This document shows, piece after piece, positions 2,496 to 39,643 of a DNA stretch of 42,446 nt. The notes beneath the pieces were generated by a model. It was not told where the DNA came from, searched no databases, and worked only from the letters and a program-made list of their open reading frames with translations. A program made the translations under genes and the position numbers. Position 1 is the first letter of the stretch. The number at the start of each line of letters is the position of its first letter. Origin of the DNA: Bacteroidota bacterium (GTDB lineage Bacteria > Bacteroidota > Bacteroidia > Chitinophagales > Chitinophagaceae); assembly GCA_005883765.1 (NCBI GenBank), contig VBAQ01000068.1:1-42446 (forward strand), read 5' to 3'.

Positions 2496-3035
2496 ATGAA
2501 AAAACTAGCGATTATTCAATGCCTGGTTTTGGCAGTAGCTGGACTATTTTTATCTTCCGCCGTGCTGGCGCAAGGTGATAAATCAAACAGGCCGAGTCCG
2601 CCTGCAACGGCAACCGGTAAGGTAGATGGAGCATCCATTACGATTAACTACAGCAGCCCGGCAGTTAAAGGGAGACAGATCTGGGGTGCATTGGTTCCTT
2701 ACGACAAAGTTTGGAGAGCAGGAGCAAACGAGGCCACCATTTTTGAAACGGACAAGGATATTAAAGTAGAAGGAAAATCGTTGAAAGCAGGAAAGTACAG
2801 TCTTTATGCTATTCCGGGCGAAAAGGAATGGGCGATTATTTTCAATTCTCAAACAGGCCAGTGGGGAGTAAAAATGGATGGCTCTACTACAGAAGATCCT
2901 GCAAAGGATGTACTGCGTGTGAATGTTAAACCAAAAAAGTCAAAGAGTTTTAGTGAGCGCATGACCTACAGGGTCGACAAAGAAGGATTTGCCCTTGTGT
3001 GGGAGAACCTGGAGGTGCCAGTGTCTGTCAAATAA
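2496..3035 (+). CDS. Secreted DUF2911 protein
   Basis: I place the start at ATG 2496 (MKKLAIIQCLVLAVAG), because it begins a clear signal peptide ending near SSAVLAQ. The upstream extension of the open frame to 2436 has no homology-like features. The mature part (about 155 residues) carries the DUF2911 pattern: a segment with ITINYSSPAVKGRQIWG, then PYDKVWRAGANEATIFE, then LKAGKYSLYAIPG. This is a periplasmic or exported beta-rich domain common in Bacteroidota; its function is unknown. It is followed by a strong intrinsic terminator and looks monocistronic. Confidence 0.9.
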   Translation: MKKLAIIQCLVLAVAGLFLSSAVLAQGDKSNRPSPPATATGKVDGASITINYSSPAVKGRQIWGALVPYDKVWRAGANEATIFETDKDIKVEGKSLKAGKYSLYAIPGEKEWAIIFNSQTGQWGVKMDGSTTEDPAKDVLRVNVKPKKSKSFSERMTYRVDKEGFALVWENLEVPVSVK

Positions 3036-13717: not shown

Positions 13718-14344
13718 TCAAGTGTCTGAAAATCCTTCCTTAGACAAATAGGCTACTAGTTTGTCGATTGCCTTTTTCCGGTGACTGAATAAGTTCTTTT
13801 CTTCCAAACTCATTTCAGCAAATGTATGAATAGCTCCTTCAGGCACAAATACGGGATCATATCCAAAGCCAGCTTTGCCTTTCTTTTCCGAAATGATTAC
13901 CCCTTTACAGATTCCTTCAAACAGAATTTCTTTTCCATCTATTTGTAGCGAAATGATAGTTCTGAATCTCGCCTTGCGATTAGTGCTTCCCTGAAGCTTT
14001 TTCAAAAGCTTCTCAATATTTTTATCAAAAGATTTTTCTTCACCAGCATACCTTGCACTTTTCACTCCAGGCTCGCCATTCAGAGTCTCTACTTCAAGAC
14101 CAGTGTCTTCGCTGAAACATCCGATCGTCCCCATCGCTATCGGGATTGGATTCATTTTTATCAACTCATAAATCGTTCTGGATTTATTGCTCGCATTTCT
14201 CTCAAGTGTATCGTATGGCTCAGGAATATCCGTATCAATTCCGGCTTCCTTCAAGGTGACAATTTCTAAAGAAGATTTTTCGCCAATTGCTGAACGGATC
14301 TCGTCTATTTTGTGCTGATTATTGGTAGCGAAAATAAGCCTCAT
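13718..14344 (-). CDS. rdgB: Non-canonical purine NTP pyrophosphatase (RdgB/HAM1), with a palindrome-encoded insertion
   Basis: RdgB hydrolyses ITP, dITP and XTP to monophosphates, keeping deaminated purines out of nucleic acids. The 208 residues show the family signature: FATNNQHKIDEI (5-16), SEDTGLEVETLNGEPGVKSARYAG in the centre, and GKAGFGYDPVFVPEG, FAEMSLEEKNLFSHR near the C-terminus. Between helix NASNKSRTIYELIKMN and CFSEDTGLEV there are about nine extra residues (PIPIAMGTIG), where relatives usually go almost directly to the C/A-F-x-[ED]-D-[ST]-G-L motif. The DNA there is a degenerate copy of the TCCCGATAGC palindrome found elsewhere in the window. The frame is kept, so the enzyme is probably active. 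Confidence 0.95.
   Translation of the reverse strand: MRLIFATNNQHKIDEIRSAIGEKSSLEIVTLKEAGIDTDIPEPYDTLERNASNKSRTIYELIKMNPIPIAMGTIGCFSEDTGLEVETLNGEPGVKSARYAGEEKSFDKNIEKLLKKLQGSTNRKARFRTIISLQIDGKEILFEGICKGVIISEKKGKAGFGYDPVFVPEGAIHTFAEMSLEEKNLFSHRKKAIDKLVAYLSKEGFSDT
14119..14147. repeat. Degenerate palindromic element inside rdgB
   Basis: The right half (ATCGCTATCGGGAT) matches the intergenic element at 39626-39643. The left half (ATCCGATCG) is a decayed inverted copy. In the rdgB frame it encodes P-I-A-M-G-T-I-G. Confidence 0.65.
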
Positions 14345-16099: not shown

Positions 16100-16157
16100 T
16101 CTCTCTTCCCAGGCTTAAAAAATCTAAAATCTTAAATAAAAAATCTAAAATCTTTCC
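16100..16157. repeat. Short-period degenerate repeat before rpsL
   Basis: The words AATCTAAAATCTTAAATA and AATCTAAAATCTTT recur in tandem immediately upstream of the rpsL promoter. The same kind of sequence fills spacers in the S10-spc cluster. Confidence 0.6.
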
Positions 16158-17236: not shown

Positions 17237-17617
17237 TTACATACCACCGGAGGAGGGCATACCGTTTCCTTCGGATGAAGATTCCATGCCTGATGAAGTT
17301 TCAGCAGCCATTGGTTCTTCCATGGGCGGTGGTGCTGGTGGCTTAGGAGCTGATTTCTTTGGAGCAGCTTTTTTAGGAGCAGCCTTCTTTGGAGCAGCTT
17401 TCTTAGCAGCTTTTTTAGGAGCGGCTTTTTTGGGAGCGGCTTTTTTCGGGGCTGCTTTTTTAGCAGCCTTTTTCCTTGGAGCTGCCTTCTTTCTTGGTGC
17501 TGCTTTTCTTGCTGCCTTTCTCTTAGGAGCTGCCTTCCTCTTGGGAGCTGCCTTCCTTTTAGATGCTACTTTCTTTTTAGGAGCAGCTCTCTTTTTTGAT
17601 TTCTTTTTTGCTGCCAT
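17237..17617 (-). CDS. Lys/Ala/Pro-rich histone H1-like protein
   Basis: This 126-residue protein is almost entirely low complexity. Residues 1 to about 90 are variants of K-K-A-A-P, first with R-rich units (AAPKRK, AAPRKK), then K-only units (KKAAPKKAAP). A Pro spacer follows (KPPAPPPMEEP) and then an acidic Ser/Gly/Met tail (ETSSGMESSSEGNG). It resembles the AlgP/HctB and H1 C-tail type of basic DNA- or RNA-binding proteins. Likely roles are nucleoid compaction or RNA binding; no specific function can be assigned. It lies between rpsG and fusA on the opposite strand with its own terminator. Its antisense frame is open only because of the biased composition. Confidence 0.85.
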   Translation of the reverse strand: MAAKKKSKKRAAPKKKVASKRKAAPKRKAAPKRKAARKAAPRKKAAPRKKAAKKAAPKKAAPKKAAPKKAAKKAAPKKAAPKKAAPKKSAPKPPAPPPMEEPMAAETSSGMESSSEGNGMPSSGGM

Positions 17618-23817: not shown

Positions 23818-23876
23818 GCCATTTCGAGATTCGTCGGAGGATGGGTAAATTTATAAAAGCAAAATCGCTTGCAAAG

Positions 23877-26105
23877 ATGAATAAAAAAATATTGTTGTGC
23901 TCAGCGCTGTTAGTCATGTATTATCTGTTAAGTGCACAAGTGCACAAGAGTCCTTCAGGAGAAAAAATATTAAAGAAGGGAATGGTGATTACCGAGAACA
24001 CGAAGATCAAAAAAGGAATCTATAAGCTAGATGGCGACCAGGGTTTTGGCGAGCCGGTCATCCTAATCGATGGATACAAAATAACTGTTGACTTTAATAA
24101 TGCAACTCTGCAAGGCAGCAACAATAAAAAAAACCCCGATGAATTTTTTGGGGTGGCAATAATCATTAGCAGCAAGAGCAGCAACGTTACTATCAAAAAT
24201 CTAAAAGCAAAGGGATACAAAGTCGCTTTGTTGGCGAAAGATGTGACAAGTCTTACGCTGGAAAATTGTGATTTCAGTTATAATTACCGGCAGCATCTTA
24301 ATAGTACGCAGGAAAAAGAAGATATTTCTGATTGGATGAGTTATCATCATAATGAGAATGACGAGTGGCTGCGTTATGGCGCCGCAATCTATCTGCGAAG
24401 TTGCAATATGCCAATCATCAAAGGTTGCACGGTAACGGGCGGACAAAATGCGCTCATGATGACGAACTGTAATGACGGGTTAGTTGTTAATAATGATTTT
24501 TCTTTTAATTCCGGCATCGGCATCGGCATGTATCATTGCAGCTACAATGAAGTTGCATACAACAGAGTTGACTTCAATGTTCGAGGATATAGTGATGGGG
24601 TCTACAACAGGGGCCAGGATAGCGCTGGCATTTTAGTATATGAGCAAAGCAGTAACAACTCTTTTTATAAAAACTCAGTTACACATAGTGGCGACGGCTT
24701 CTTCTTATGGGCCGGACAAACAACAATGGATAGCGGGCAGGGAGGATGTAATGATAATCTCATTTTCGGAAATGATTTTTCGTACGCCCCAACGAACGGG
24801 GTAGAAGTTACTTTCAGTCGAAACAAAATTTTGAAGAACAGGATCTTTGAGTGTGACAATGGAATCTGGGGCGGATACAGCTATAATACTCAGATTGGGG
24901 GAAACCAGTTTCGAAATAATAACGTTGGCATTGCTGTTGAGCATGGGCAAGAAAACAACATCTATAATAATTTATTTTTTAGAGACAAGGTCGCAGTAAA
25001 ACTTTGGGCAAGAAAAGAGCAGCCAGCCGACCCGATAGCTATCGGGTGGGGTTATGCAAAATTCCGTGACACGAGGAGCAGAAACTATAATTTATTTCTC
25101 AATAGTTACAATGAAAATAACACAGCCGTAGATGCTGTTCGTACAGATTCTATAAAAATTTTCGGTAATTATTTCTCTCACACGGATCAGTTGTTGAAAA
25201 TTGATTCAACGGTGACGAACATTGATTCTACCGAAGATGATTCACTGGTTGATAAATTTTCAAATGACACTACGATCATAGAAACACCATTCAAAGGTAC
25301 GGTTGACCCTTTTAGGGGACGAGGTATACTTAACGGCCGAAAAAATATTTTGATTACGGAATGGGGACCCCATGATTTTCGTTCACCTGTCATTTGGAAC
25401 ACAAATCCCGTTGACACGTCTGGCATCATGCAATTCGATATTAAAGGCCCAAAAGGAAAATGGAAAATTAAATCTTATAAAGGTGTTGACAGCTTTTCTT
25501 CAAAGAGCGGCAACTTGCCTGCGACAATTACAGTAAGAAAATTGAAAACAGAAAGAACAGACATTGACATTCAGCTTGAGTATTCCGGGGAAGAGGTAAA
25601 AACTCCGTTTGGCGAAACCATTCAAAAAGGAAAGCCATATGTCTTTTCCTATAAGAAATTCTTTCAACCGATCGATTTTACGGTGAATTGGTTCAGCCTG
25701 GATACCGCGATTTACAATCCAATTAAGACAGGCGAATTGTTTGCCGCTAATGTAAAAATGCGGCCTGTTAAGACTGAAAGGGCACAGAAGCTCGATTATG
25801 CCTGGTGGGGCGGCTTGAAAACAGATGAGGGACAGTTCACTCAATTTATAACAGTTGCGGAGGGAGAAAGTAATTTTCAAAAGGGGGACTATGAATTAGG
25901 AATAACGTGGGATGATGCGGTGAGAATTTATGTCGATAACAAGCTGGTTGTCGATGAATGGAACCCCTCGAAATACACTTTCGATGAATCGCCTCACAGG
26001 CAAGTGAAATTAAGCCTTGGAGATGGAAAGCATCTTTTCCGGGTTGAACATCTCGAACTGGGCGGCTTTGCGACGTTGTCCTTAAAGATCAAAAGAGCCG
26101 AATAA
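23877..26105 (+). CDS. Secreted right-handed parallel beta-helix protein with C-terminal PA14-like domain
   Basis: I start at ATG 23877, which opens a signal peptide (NKKILLCSALLVMYYLLSAQ); the open frame to 23841 would add a basic extension without features. The 742-residue protein has PbH1 repeats at about 70-400, seen as N-rich turns such as SSNVTIKNLKAKGYKVALLAKD, CNDGLVVNNDFSFNSGIGIGMY and NTQIGGNQFRNNNVGIAVEHG. This fold is typical of polysaccharide lyases, epimerases and NosD-like proteins. Residues from about 640 resemble PA14 (GDYELGITWDDAVRIYVDNK and LVVDEW). Substrate is unknown. A perfect 18-bp palindrome at 25030 adds D-P-I-A-I-G in frame. Confidence 0.88.
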   Translation: MNKKILLCSALLVMYYLLSAQVHKSPSGEKILKKGMVITENTKIKKGIYKLDGDQGFGEPVILIDGYKITVDFNNATLQGSNNKKNPDEFFGVAIIISSKSSNVTIKNLKAKGYKVALLAKDVTSLTLENCDFSYNYRQHLNSTQEKEDISDWMSYHHNENDEWLRYGAAIYLRSCNMPIIKGCTVTGGQNALMMTNCNDGLVVNNDFSFNSGIGIGMYHCSYNEVAYNRVDFNVRGYSDGVYNRGQDSAGILVYEQSSNNSFYKNSVTHSGDGFFLWAGQTTMDSGQGGCNDNLIFGNDFSYAPTNGVEVTFSRNKILKNRIFECDNGIWGGYSYNTQIGGNQFRNNNVGIAVEHGQENNIYNNLFFRDKVAVKLWARKEQPADPIAIGWGYAKFRDTRSRNYNLFLNSYNENNTAVDAVRTDSIKIFGNYFSHTDQLLKIDSTVTNIDSTEDDSLVDKFSNDTTIIETPFKGTVDPFRGRGILNGRKNILITEWGPHDFRSPVIWNTNPVDTSGIMQFDIKGPKGKWKIKSYKGVDSFSSKSGNLPATITVRKLKTERTDIDIQLEYSGEEVKTPFGETIQKGKPYVFSYKKFFQPIDFTVNWFSLDTAIYNPIKTGELFAANVKMRPVKTERAQKLDYAWWGGLKTDEGQFTQFITVAEGESNFQKGDYELGITWDDAVRIYVDNKLVVDEWNPSKYTFDESPHRQVKLSLGDGKHLFRVEHLELGGFATLSLKIKRAE
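25030..25047. repeat. Perfect palindrome ACCCGATAGCTATCGGGT inside a CDS
   Basis: An 18-bp perfect palindrome of the same family as the intergenic copies at 33473 and 36473, here inside the beta-helix gene and in frame (A-D-P-I-A-I-G-W). Confidence 0.95.
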
Positions 26106-29180: not shown

Positions 29181-29213
29181 GATTGCAGATTTTAAGCAAT
29201 AAAATCTGAAATC
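29181..29213. repeat. Hairpin in the rplW-rplB spacer
   Basis: GATTGCAGATTTT and AAAATCTGAAATC pair at 12 of 13 positions with a 7-nt loop. The word GATTGCAG recurs in other spacers (33007, 36494). Confidence 0.8.
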
Positions 29214-29231
29214 TTAAATCTTAAATAGAAT

Positions 29232-30071
29232 ATGGCAGTAAAAAAATACAAACCGGTTACGGCAGGCACTCGTTGGAGAATTGGAAATGCTTATGCAGAA
29301 GTCACAACCAACGAACCCGAAAAATCTTTGCTTGAAACAAAGAAAAGAACTGGTGGTCGTAACTCGTCTGGTCATATGACCATGCGCTATATTGGTGGCG
29401 GTCATAAGAAGAAATATCGTGTCATTGATTTTAAACGTGACAAAAAAGATATTGAAGCGACAGTAAAAACCGTCGAGTATGATCCGAACCGAACTTGTTT
29501 TATTGCTCTAGTAGAATATACAGATGGTGAATTACGGTACATCATCGCTCCACAGGGTTTGCAGGTCGGTGCCAAAATTATAAGTGGGAACGATGTAGCT
29601 CCGGAGATAGGGAATGCACTACCGATGAAGAATATGCCTTTAGGTACGAATATTCACAATATTGAAATGCAGCCCGGACAGGGAGGAAAAATTTCAAGAA
29701 GCGCTGGTGCTACGGCCCAACTCACCAACAAAGAAGATAGATATGCTATTTTAAAAATGCCAAGTGGTGAATTGAGAAAAGTGTTGATCAATTGCTACGC
29801 AACAGTGGGTGTAGTGAGCAACAGTGATCACAGTCAGCAAAGCATGGGCAAGGCGGGTCGCAATCGCTGGAAAGGAATTCGCCCACGTAATCGCGGCGTG
29901 GCAATGAATCCTGTGGATCACCCGATGGGTGGCGGTGAAGGTAAGGCGTCTGGTGGACAGCCACGCAGCAGAAACGGTCAATATTCAAGAGGGTTAAAAA
30001 CCCGCAAGCCGCACAAGAGCAGCGATAATTTGATCATTCAGAGAAAGAATGGCAGTAAATTAACTAAATAA
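29232..30071 (+). CDS. rplB: 50S ribosomal protein L2
   Basis: L2 joins the subunits and is needed for peptidyl transferase activity. The 279-residue protein carries the RNA-binding SH3-like domain and the C-terminal loop [17 protein letters not shown], which contains the conserved His of the family. The N-terminal block [25 protein letters not shown] is also typical. Its ATG follows the hairpin at 29181-29213 by 18 nt. Confidence 0.99.
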
Positions 30072-30077
30072 CAAAAA

Positions 30078-30122
30078 GCAAATTCCAAATCACAACCAGA
30101 GAACTGGGATTTGGGATTTGGC
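30078..30122. repeat. Imperfect inverted repeat in the rplB-rpsS spacer
   Basis: GCAAATTCCAAATCAC pairs imperfectly with GGGATTTGGGATTTGGC. The same CCAAAT/ATTTGG words form hairpins before rpsN and rplO. Confidence 0.7.
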
Positions 30123-32996: not shown

Positions 32997-33069
32997 CGGA
33001 TTGTGGATTGCAGATTGTGGATTTTTTGCAACTGCTCTCAATCTGAAATCTAATTCCGATAATTATCGG
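32997..33069. repeat. Compound repeat in the rpsQ-rplN spacer
   Basis: CGGATTGTGGATTGCAGATTG (32997-33017, split as CGGATTG and two variant units) pairs imperfectly with CAATCTGAAATCTAATTCCG (33039-33058). The right arm runs into the palindrome CCGATAATTATCGG (33056-33069), a member of the TCCCGATA family. Confidence 0.75.
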
Positions 33070-33093
33070 GACTGAAATTTAAAATTATACACG

Positions 33094-33462
33094 ATGATTC
33101 AGCAAGAAAGCCGTTTAAATGTCGCGGATAACAGTGGCGCCAAAGAGGTGCTTTGCATCCGTGTATTGGGTAACAGCGGCCAGCGTTATGCAAGAATTGG
33201 CGATACAATAGTCGTTACCGTAAAAGATGCATTGCCCGCAGGTGGTATTAAGAAAGGAACAGTAACCAAGGCGGTCATCGTCCGTACCACAAATAAATTA
33301 CGTCGCAAAGATGGCTCTTACATCCGTTTTGATGACAACGCTGTGGTGTTGTTGTCAACTACAGACGAACCGAGAGGAACACGAATCTTTGGACCGGTGG
33401 CGAGAGAACTTCGTGACAAAGGGTACATGAAGATCATTTCACTGGCGCCTGAGGTGCTGTAG
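33094..33462 (+). CDS. rplN: 50S ribosomal protein L14
   Basis: The 122-residue protein starts [26 protein letters not shown] and carries [30 protein letters not shown], then [15 protein letters not shown] and [13 protein letters not shown]. It is the expected full length. L14 forms inter-subunit bridges and is the docking site for RsfS. Confidence 0.99.
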
Positions 33463-33501
33463 TGAATGGTGATCCCGATAGCTATCGGGAGTGAATGGTG
33501 A
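33462..33501. repeat. TCCCGATAGCTATCGGGA palindrome flanked by an 11-bp direct repeat
   Basis: The perfect 18-bp palindrome at 33473-33490 is bordered exactly by GTGAATGGTGA on each side (33462-33472 and 33491-33501). The left copy includes the last base of the rplN stop codon. The flanks look like a target-site duplication, though GTGAATG is itself repeated nearby. Confidence 0.9.
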
Positions 33502-33950: not shown

Positions 33951-34516
33951 TGGCAACGACAACTTATGCTCCAAGGCTGGAGAAAAAATATCATGACGAA
34001 GTGGTGCCGGCCTTGATGAAGAAGTTTGGGTACAAAAGCATCATGCAGGTACCGAGACTTGAAAAGATTTGTTTGAACCGCGGTGTCAATGGCGCCGTGT
34101 CGGACAAGAAATTGGTGGATACTTCAGTGGAAGAGCTTTCAACGATCAGTGGTCAGAAGGCGATGTCCACGATGTCCAAAAAAGATATTTCCAATTTCAA
34201 GTTGCGCAAGAACATGCCGATCGGCGCAAGAGTCACCCTGCGTAGTGATAAAATGTATGAATTCATGGATCGCCTGGTGGCCGTCGCGTTGCCACGCGTG
34301 CGTGACTTCAGGGGCGTGAATGAAAAATCTTTCGATGGCAGAGGTAACTACACGATGGGAGTGACGGAGCAGATCATTTTCCCGGAAATAGATATTGATA
34401 AGGTGACGAGGATCACTGGAATGGACATAACATTTGTGACTACAGCAGGAACAGATGAAGAAGCTTATGAGTTGTTAAAAGAATTAGGAATGCCTTTTAG
34501 AAACATAAAAAAATAA
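33950..34516 (+). CDS. rplE: 50S ribosomal protein L5
   Basis: The 188-residue protein shows [67 protein letters not shown] and [34 protein letters not shown]5 binds 5S rRNA and contacts P-site tRNA. Its ATG shares one base with the rplX stop, so the pair is translationally coupled. Confidence 0.99.
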
Positions 34517-34526
34517 AATCACAAAT

Positions 34527-34577
34527 ACCAAATCACAAATCTCCATAGGCAATAATCTTTGGAATTTGGAATTTGGT
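34527..34577. repeat. CCAAAT/ATTTGG hairpin in the rplE-rpsN spacer
   Basis: ACCAAATCACAAAT (34527-34540) pairs at 12 of 14 positions with ATTTGGAATTTGGT (34564-34577) around a 23-nt loop, ending 22 nt before the rpsN ATG. Confidence 0.8.
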
Positions 34578-36109: not shown

Positions 36110-36472
36110 ATGAATCCGAAAGTTAAATCGAAGAGACGGCAGAATATTCGCTACAGAATTCGCAGAAGAATCGGTGAGGGTGTAGCAGTGAAACCCCGCC
36201 TGTCGGTCTATAGAAGCAACAATGAAATTTACGTGCAGTTGATCGATGATAGCAAAGGTGAGACCATCGCTTCTGCTTCATCCAAAGACAAAGACGTTGC
36301 TGCGCAGAAAGGCACGAAAATAGAAAAAAGCAAATTGGTGGGTGCTGCAATTGCAAGAAAAGCAACAGAGCTTGGATTAAAGGAAGTGAAGTTTGATCGT
36401 GGTGGATATTTATATCATGGTCGTGTGAAGGCAGTGGCTGATGGAGCAAGAGAAGGAGGGCTTCAATTTTAG
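36110..36472 (+). CDS. rplR: 50S ribosomal protein L18
   Basis: The 120-residue protein has the basic N-terminus KSKRRQNIRYRIRRRIGEG, then RLSVYRSNNEIYVQLIDDSKGETIASASSKDKD and FDRGGYLYHGRVKAVADGAREGGLQF. L18 anchors 5S rRNA in the large subunit together with L5. Confidence 0.99.
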   Translation: MNPKVKSKRRQNIRYRIRRRIGEGVAVKPRLSVYRSNNEIYVQLIDDSKGETIASASSKDKDVAAQKGTKIEKSKLVGAAIARKATELGLKEVKFDRGGYLYHGRVKAVADGAREGGLQF

Positions 36473-36546
36473 TCCCGATAGTTATCGGGATCAGATTGCA
36501 GATTGCGGATTTCTTAAGAATCAATAGGAATGCAAATTCCGAAATC
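36473..36546. repeat. Compound repeat in the rplR-rpsE spacer
   Basis: It starts directly after the rplR stop with TCCCGATAGTTATCGGGA (36473-36490, one G-T wobble). GATTGCAGATTGCGGATTTC-type words (36494-36513) follow and can pair partly with GCAAATTCCGAAATC (36532-36546). The order of parts mirrors that of the rpsQ-rplN spacer. Confidence 0.8.
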
Positions 36547-37307: not shown

Positions 37308-37487
37308 ATGAAGAAGATAAAAATAACTTTAGTAAAAAGCCCGATTGACAGGCCGGAGCGTCAGAAGCAAACACTCAAGGCTCTCGGTCTGAATAAAGCA
37401 AATGCGGCTAAAGAAGTGGATGCTACTCCGCAAATACTGGGCATGGTACGCAAAGTGGAACACCTGGTGAAAGTGGAGGAGGTCTAA
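37308..37487 (+). CDS. rpmD: 50S ribosomal protein L30
   Basis: This short gene (59 codons plus stop) starts at ATG 37308 and ends with TAA at 37485. It reads MKKIKITLVKSPIDRPERQK, then TLKALGLNKANAAKEVDATP, then ILGMVRKVEHLVKVEEV. The K-I-x-L-V-x-S-x-I motif and the G-M-V-x-K-V-x-H-L-V ending are those of L30, in its standard position between S5 and L15. Confidence 0.97.
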   Translation: MKKIKITLVKSPIDRPERQKQTLKALGLNKANAAKEVDATPQILGMVRKVEHLVKVEEV

Positions 37488-37559
37488 ATCACAAATAGCA
37501 AATCTCAAATCCCAAATAAGTAAACACCGGTTGGAATTTGGAATTTGATATTTGATTTT
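37486..37559. repeat. CAAAT/ATTTG hairpin in the rpmD-rplO spacer
   Basis: Tandem words ATCACAAATAGCAAATC and TCAAATCCC on the left pair imperfectly with GGAATTTGGAATTTGATATT and TGATTTT on the right. It is close in sequence to the rplE-rpsN element. The right arm is followed by AGCCCCCTTCGGGGTGC, a second small stem. Confidence 0.75.
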
Positions 37560-39625: not shown

Positions 39626-39643
39626 TCCCGATCGCTATCGGGA
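39626..39643. repeat. TCCCGATCGCTATCGGGA element between secY and map
   Basis: A near-perfect 18-bp palindrome of the TCCCGATA family, with one mismatched central pair, within a C/G-rich stretch that continues to 39675. Confidence 0.85.

Follow-up and report, generated by a model that had tools for sequence, protein, structure and literature searches.

A short interspersed palindrome inserted in frame in rdgB and other conserved genes of a Chitinophagaceae bacterium

Introduction

The rdgB gene studied here lies in a 42,446-nt stretch of DNA from a Chitinophagaceae bacterium, the whole of which is hereafter called the window. Its protein raises the question of how a conserved enzyme came to carry a run of extra residues just ahead of its active-site motif. 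A first-pass annotation, made from the sequence alone, had proposed that about nine residues were added by a decayed copy of a palindrome that also occurs between genes, a situation established for Rickettsia and one that would be notable in Bacteroidota. Here we follow this proposal from the rdgB insert to the rest of the genome, to related genomes and to known families of palindromic repeats.

Results

The RdgB insert contains a decayed copy of an interspersed palindrome

The gene product belongs to the Ham1/RdgB family, as its match to the TIGR00042 profile (156.7 bits) exceeds the cut-off of 145.35 and the SEDTGLEV motif is intact in the alignment; it also matches PF01725 with 200.3 bits. 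Extra residues are indeed present ahead of CFSEDTGLEV, and their number is ten (PIPIAMGTIG) rather than about nine (Table 1). The core of the palindrome is the 18-bp perfect palindrome TCCCGATAGCTATCGGGA. The copy within the rdgB insert, TCCCCATCGCTATCGGGA (TCCCGATAGCGATGGGGA on the coding strand), matches it at 16/18 positions, and none of 20,000 letter shuffles of the insert reached its score, in agreement with the annotation's reading of the insert DNA as a decayed copy. On the coding strand, the copy lies between the arms AATCCAA on the left and CGATCGGA on the right, which appear by eye to resemble the AATCCGA-type filler at other copies (L164 and L150).

In an AlphaFold2 model of RdgB (mean pLDDT 85.5), whose fold agrees with solved Ham1/RdgB structures, the insert lies between the helix 47–64 and the SEDTGLEV-bearing strand 73–85, and is a predicted added loop near the active-site motif. 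A surface loop had been expected, and a loop is what the model predicts, except that the last three residues (73–75) join the next strand; model confidence drops just ahead of them (mean 70 for the block 61–70).

Table 1. Position of rdgB, its insert and the palindrome copies in the window.
Feature	Position	Strand	Description
rdgB, Ham1-type non-canonical purine NTP pyrophosphatase gene	13718..14344	minus	208 aa; from ORF, TIGR00042, PF01725 and PDB homologues
30-nt insert in rdgB, encoding PIPIAMGTIG (residues 66-75)	14120..14149	minus	Absent from 28/29 fetched relatives and from 30/30 public RdgBs; AlphaFold2 model
Decayed 18-bp palindrome copy inside rdgB insert	14128..14145	no strand	2 mismatches
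In-frame copy ACCCGATAGCTATCGGGT, read DPIAIGW	25030..25047	no strand	In 754-aa right-handed beta-helix/PA14 gene 23841-26105 (+)
Intergenic copy, 3 mismatches	33054..33071	no strand	
Perfect intergenic copy	33473..33490	no strand	10 bp past stop of ORF 33094-33462
Copy with 1 mismatch	36473..36490	no strand	Immediately 3' of stop codon of ORF 36110-36472
Intergenic copy with 1 mismatch, TCCCGATCGCTATCGGGA variant	39626..39643	no strand	

The palindrome occurs at 95 sites with at most three mismatches in the 4.67-Mb genome (53 with at most one and 23 exact), and the reversed control occurs at none. Within the window, the half-site TCCCGATAGC with at most one mismatch gave 10 matches against 1.63 expected, a number that 0/100 shuffles reached. 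A chance resemblance to the palindrome is made very improbable by this half-site excess, by the 95 sites against 0 for the control and by the shuffles of the insert.

The perfect intergenic copy of the window is flanked by the 11-nt direct repeat GTGAATGGTGA. The window contains no tRNA and no Rfam family above the gathering score. Degenerate AAATCNN heptamer-like repeats are found at 16119-16151, 29201-29233, 30066-30091, 34508-34541 and 37486-37525, and a minus-strand reading frame at 17237-17617 contains repeats spaced 15/18 nt and looks lysine-alanine rich by eye. In L160, the TAG stop of a 115-codon reading frame comes from a palindrome copy (3003-3020).

The insert is missing from RdgB of relatives

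RdgB was matched in 94/99 relative genomes searched. Matched length served as a proxy for the insert in the 92 genomes that span the site, a count that excludes the window's own genome and G075, whose match ends before the site; it exceeded 579 nt in just one of them, G001 (594 nt, against 624 nt in the own genome). DNA was compared for the best 30 of the 94 matching genomes, the own one included, and in 28 of the resulting 29 relatives the insert is missing; among these 28, L007 has a loop longer by one residue. G001, the sole same-genus genome, has five other extra residues (TLAIG) at the insert site. Similarly, the insert is absent from all 30 RdgBs of named public genomes that were aligned (30 of 80 loci kept). 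The alignment that the first-pass annotation had called for therefore supports a lineage-specific insert, and the opposite pattern, in which all relatives share the residues and lack the palindrome, was not observed.

A shared ancestral RdgB loop is rejected, as relatives other than G001 lack the extra residues by all three measures (29 relatives, 30 public RdgBs and 92 match lengths). The TLAIG stretch of G001 is weakly palindrome-like (473/20,000 shuffles score equally well), which is suggestive of a palindrome remnant and leaves the dating of the RdgB insertion uncertain.

In-frame copies occur in 14 genes of the genome

We examined 60 sites in the window and in fetched stretches of the same genome, and dropped two with four mismatches (a RibD_C protein in L155, and L144). 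The remaining 58 comprise 23/23 exact, 29/30 one-mismatch and 6/42 two- or three-mismatch sites, so this sample is biased toward well-preserved copies. Fifteen of the 58 lie in frame, in 14 genes with Pfam-matching proteins: RdgB, the beta-helix protein, two MacB/FtsX-type permeases, an Lhr-type helicase (whose alignment ends just short of the insert), an RsmB/F-type methyltransferase, AroA, an AAA_28 protein that we read as NadR-like, a glycosyltransferase with two copies (a PDB search with it gave no match at E <= 0.001), kynureninase, GyrA (C-terminal tail), a metallophosphoesterase, an FG-GAP protein and an acyl-CoA dehydrogenase (N-terminal tail). In-frame insertion of the palindrome hence holds on a larger scale than the single rdgB case first noted: protein-coding palindromic elements do have a counterpart in Bacteroidota, and the RdgB insert is one of at least 15 such copies in the genome.

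Eight of these 15 copies are read in a PDSYR-like frame, four in a PIAIG-like frame and three in frame 0. In the last of these the perfect palindrome has a TAG, and all three frame-0 copies have TCG, reading SRSLSG; as TCG is required for this frame to be open, its presence in the three copies is not independent evidence. Seven of the 15 are exact and therefore probably recent, and insertion of the palindrome looks recent and recurrent. The two FtsX-type paralogues, which are 33% identical, have exact copies at the same alignment position, which could reflect either a hot spot or conversion. As judged from the sequences, the palindrome adds a few residues to conserved enzymes without destroying the genes.

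Filled, empty and altered sites in related genes

The comparison with close relatives covers five of the 14 genes, namely those for RdgB, AroA, kynureninase, the RsmB-like protein and the NadR-like protein. For AroA, we aligned 14 relatives (15 fetched of 36 matching genomes, own included), 13 of which have no copy within four mismatches; the AroA loop of L183 reads HPDVERE, and its DNA contains no such copy. In G001, the loop of AroA that carries the copy in the window's genome also contains a perfect copy, read in another frame. In kynureninase, the seven extra residues of the window's genome correspond to the 18-mer plus a TGA duplication; the segment is missing in 13/14 aligned relatives, two of which have a four-mismatch match elsewhere in the fetched stretch, and a decayed form of the insert is found in G001. 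No copy was seen in any of the 14 relatives compared for the RsmB-like protein (15 places fetched; 28/39 genomes match) or in any of the 14 for the NadR-like protein (15 places fetched; 30/39 genomes match); loop length varies in these relatives, some of which have other low-complexity loops at the site.

G001 itself has 50 sites with at most two mismatches, of which 15 loci were fetched, revealing in-frame copies in guaA, lpxB, aroA and the orthologue of the glycosyltransferase of the window's genome. The two glycosyltransferases are 75% identical and have copies in the same loop, with frame and copy number differing. For GuaA (59/59 genomes match; 30 loci fetched), we aligned 29 relatives and saw no copy within the aligned gene in any of them; in L306, an exact copy lies just beyond the matched stretch. 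The guaA gene of the window's genome has a bare heptamer array, ACTCACT-ACTCACC-ACTCACG-ACTCACG, and at the same place in G001 an array of this kind contains the palindrome, with the phase shifted by 4; E. coli GuaA is without most of this segment. Around the palindrome, an identical 43-nt stretch is found in both aroA and guaA of G001. Heptamer-period or low-complexity DNA in coding loops, with no palindrome in the gene, was also noticed in L305, L315 and L306 (guaA), L192 (aroA), and L214 and L220 (NadR-like); the loop of L315 was judged from the protein alone. By eye, the copies at L255 2001 and L265 2001 read PIAIG in apparent signal peptides of exported proteins.

The palindrome is thus multi-copy and lineage-specific, lies both between genes and in frame in conserved genes, and can occupy the same loops in sister species in another frame. 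We consider that the RdgB insert is very probably an old copy of a small interspersed palindromic element, one that is non-autonomous and multiplies in certain genomes of the Chitinophagaceae type.

Flanking sequences and candidate transposases

In the window's genus, direct duplications of at least 4 nt flank 4/47 de-duplicated sites against 0.4 expected (0/2000 shuffles), and in other genera 0/58 sites against 0.37 expected. Under strict flank de-duplication, duplications of at least 3 nt are found at 5/88 sites against 2.65 expected (124/1000 shuffles), which is not a significant excess; the excess is significant without flank de-duplication and, under the milder one, in the window's genus alone. 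These flanks give a weak signal of target-site duplication. Among MITE features, the palindrome shows no internal part and short duplications in the window's genus alone.

The heptamers around copies are ACTCACG, GTGAATN and AAATCNN, whose arrays often host the palindrome, also inside genes. The repeat phase in these arrays jumps by 4, as would be expected of a 4-nt duplication, and 11-nt duplications are present at 5/164 sites before de-duplication; the figure for kynureninase is 3. Outer inverted stems of at least 6 bp are found at 5/88 de-duplicated sites against 0.87 expected (0/1000 shuffles); two of the five are explained otherwise, by an adjoining second partial palindrome (L137) and by a tRNA-derived stem (L226).

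Several copies lie in tRNA-derived DNA. In L226, from 1144 to 2000 and beyond (G322:C7), an intact tRNA-Met gene adjoins tandem pseudo-tRNA copies of about 128 bp, in which the palindrome stands in place of the anticodon-loop region and the 5' part, and L229 (G236:C17) has flanks of the same kind beside a tRNA-Met. In G119, partial 5' tRNA copies (L231 2001, L237 2228 and L233 2001) have the GTT/GCT of the D-loop replaced by the palindrome, those in L231 and L237 adjoining intact tRNA-Asn and tRNA-Ala.

Copies might stem from slippage during replication, or from template switching, at short hairpins and in heptamer arrays, with no transposase involved. The arrays around and within coding inserts, the excess of outer stems and the pseudo-tRNA copies with the palindrome in place of loops would all fit such an origin. 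We nevertheless regard it as unlikely, given the identical 43-nt stretch in two genes of G001 and the occurrence of an identical 18-mer in unrelated flanks and distant families, which calls for a donor copy rather than local slippage. An insertion process, as favoured here, is well supported.

The element could also be a REP moved by a RAYT or IS200/IS605-type tyrosine transposase, as an ordinary REPtron product, since it is hairpin-forming and REP-sized. We compared hand-picked genomes rich in copies (14 or more; 19 genomes) with poor ones (7 or fewer; 21 genomes), and found Y1_Tnp (PF01797) in 32/40 genomes, comprising 17/19 rich and 15/21 poor; strong matches (E<1e-15, our own count of the table) showed a trend in favour of this origin, at 15/19 against 8/21. 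The GTAG tag, however, is present at 0/148 sites, eight Y1_Tnp loci fetched (six from rich genomes, most with flanks of about 1.5 kb at either end) contain no palindrome copy, and no Y1_Tnp was found in two copy-rich but incomplete genomes, G048 (73 copies, 83% complete) and G013 (52 copies, 72% complete). A mobilising gene was not found in this comparison, as the presence of Y1_Tnp does not separate rich from poor genomes, and a REPtron origin, which we keep as a rival, seems to us unlikely.

Patchy distribution across genomes and viruses

Allowing one mismatch, the palindrome is present in 78/294 genomes of the family, with the reversed control at 0 throughout, and at least 10 copies are present in 30 of the 294 (our own count of the table). 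Exact copies are found in 28/395 genomes of a phylum sample, the own one included, all 28 being among the 98 genomes of the same class and none among the 297 of other classes (again our own count). The distribution is patchy, also within genera: copy numbers within one genus are 46, 0, 49, 45 and 7, the 46 and the 0 being those of G119 and G195.

The palindrome could also be a chromosomal protein-binding site of the parS, matS or SlmA-site type, kept by selection also inside genes, that RdgB happens to contain. Its exact dyad symmetry, its dozens of copies over a chromosome, the 14 exact sites along a single contig of G275 and its occurrence as one and the same exact 18-mer in a number of families within the class are in line with this; yet wherever relatives were aligned the copies prove to be insertions and not point-mutated native codons, species of one genus range from 46 copies to 0, and copies are nested in pseudo-tRNA and heptamer arrays, all of which makes a binding site very improbable.

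In viral contigs, we found the palindrome in 37 stretches at 40 sites, a raw count without chance expectation. Five of the 40 sites fall within frames that run for 150 codons or more from stop to stop; all five are read in the PDSYR frame, and some are near-identical to each other. The viral copies may be a route between hosts, or may simply belong to prophages of these hosts. In viral contigs L336, L338, L344, L358 and L368, the palindrome sits within another hairpin-like repeat, CCTCACCCC[...]CTCTCC...GGAGAGG or its complement.

Comparison with known palindromic repeats

Like the palindrome described here, Rickettsia palindromic elements (RPEs) and those of Wolbachia are interspersed, occur between genes as well as in frame in conserved genes, and have altered forms in sister species. 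The insertion in frame in pre-existing conserved ORFs that characterises RPEs is found here. As to the solvent-exposed position expected of RPE-encoded residues, the observation is a single predicted loop (RdgB, AlphaFold2). The hosts differ, being Rickettsia on the one side and genomes of about 4-5 Mb from another phylum on the other, and the core is, we presume, a sequence other than those of the RPEs. RPEs are given as 100-150 bp in PMC3767692, in contrast to our 18-bp core, for which the measured units are 21 nt (kynureninase), 30 nt (RdgB) and the 43-nt stretch common to aroA and guaA of G001. PMC2229807 describes RPEs in RNA genes too (tmRNA and RNase P RNA) and reviews in-frame fusions of other small repeats. 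In-gene palindromes do occur in Rickettsia, as the first-pass annotation stated, but are not confined there: PMC3733652 describes intragenic GTAG and CGTC REPs from several species, lists CGTC repeats from Bacteroidetes among five phyla, and classes RPE-4 and RPE-6 with the short CGTC REPs.

These CGTC REPs (including RPE-4, RPE-6 and Neisseria dRS3) resemble the palindrome in being short and in lying also inside ORFs, and PMC3733652, where it treats them, knows of no dedicated transposase. They end in CGTC, TGTC or CCTC on one side and have a CCA-type tail, whereas the palindrome has no constant end of this kind and a perfectly palindromic core. CGTC is found at 17/148 sites, and any of the three ends at 67/148 with core overlap allowed, about as often as when the test is repeated 6-14 nt further out in the flanks (35-72). 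CCA lies beside the core at 7/148 sites, and a CGTC REP tag was not recognised among them. GTAG REPs with their RAYT transposases are likewise small, interspersed, hairpin-forming and sometimes intragenic, and differ by the tag.

The heptamer direct repeats TAACTGA, described by PMC4679880 from Beggiatoaceae, Cyanobacteria and Bacteroidetes, form mostly intergenic 7-nt arrays; they share this period and a patchy occurrence with the arrays found here, which consist of different heptamers and host the palindrome. A string search of the open-access literature with the palindrome gave no 16-mer among the matches listed and, by title, no paper on this repeat; for coding palindromes in Bacteroidota, only PMC3733652 was relevant by title or terms.

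Discussion

It is scarcely credible that the RdgB loop represents a lineage-specific extension of the ordinary kind, palindrome-like by chance. Loops at comparable places do vary among other proteins of this family, as in the AroA and NadR-like kinase alignments, but 0/20,000 shuffles matched the insert, 14 more in-frame copies lie in the same genome and the length of the RdgB loop is nearly fixed in relatives.

With the RdgB insert taken as an old copy of an interspersed palindromic element, copies would land anywhere in the genome, and those that kill genes would be lost. Copies in surface loops with a net length divisible by three would survive, since two of the three frames leave the core open, the hydrophilic PDSYR and the hydrophobic PIAIG, and the third frame would open once the internal TAG mutates to TCG (SRSLSG). 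The RdgB copy, which reads PIAMG, would since have decayed by two substitutions. Movement perhaps involves a short target duplication of 3-4 nt and would often take place within heptamer-repeat arrays. Most likely, the protein tolerates the added residues and does not profit from them.

More tentatively, the 18-bp perfect palindrome, which bears no tag, may be a unit that is actively mobile in the class Bacteroidia and moves by a mechanism of its own. Such a unit would favour arrays of heptamer repeats and the loops of hairpins, among them hairpins derived from tRNAs, would leave a short target duplication, would be carried between families partly by phages, and, because its sequence can be read as a hydrophilic peptide, would be engaged in an ongoing remodelling of essential enzymes at their surface loops.

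Selfish palindromes that lie in frame are known above all from the reduced genomes of intracellular Rickettsia, whereas here the unit is much shorter, the genomes are about 4-5 Mb and the phylum is another. The enzymes affected include AroA, GuaA, LpxB and GyrA, and sister species show filled, empty and decayed sites, which offers a tractable setting for two questions, namely by what means palindromes of such minimal size move, and with what frequency selfish DNA contributes loop residues to proteins.
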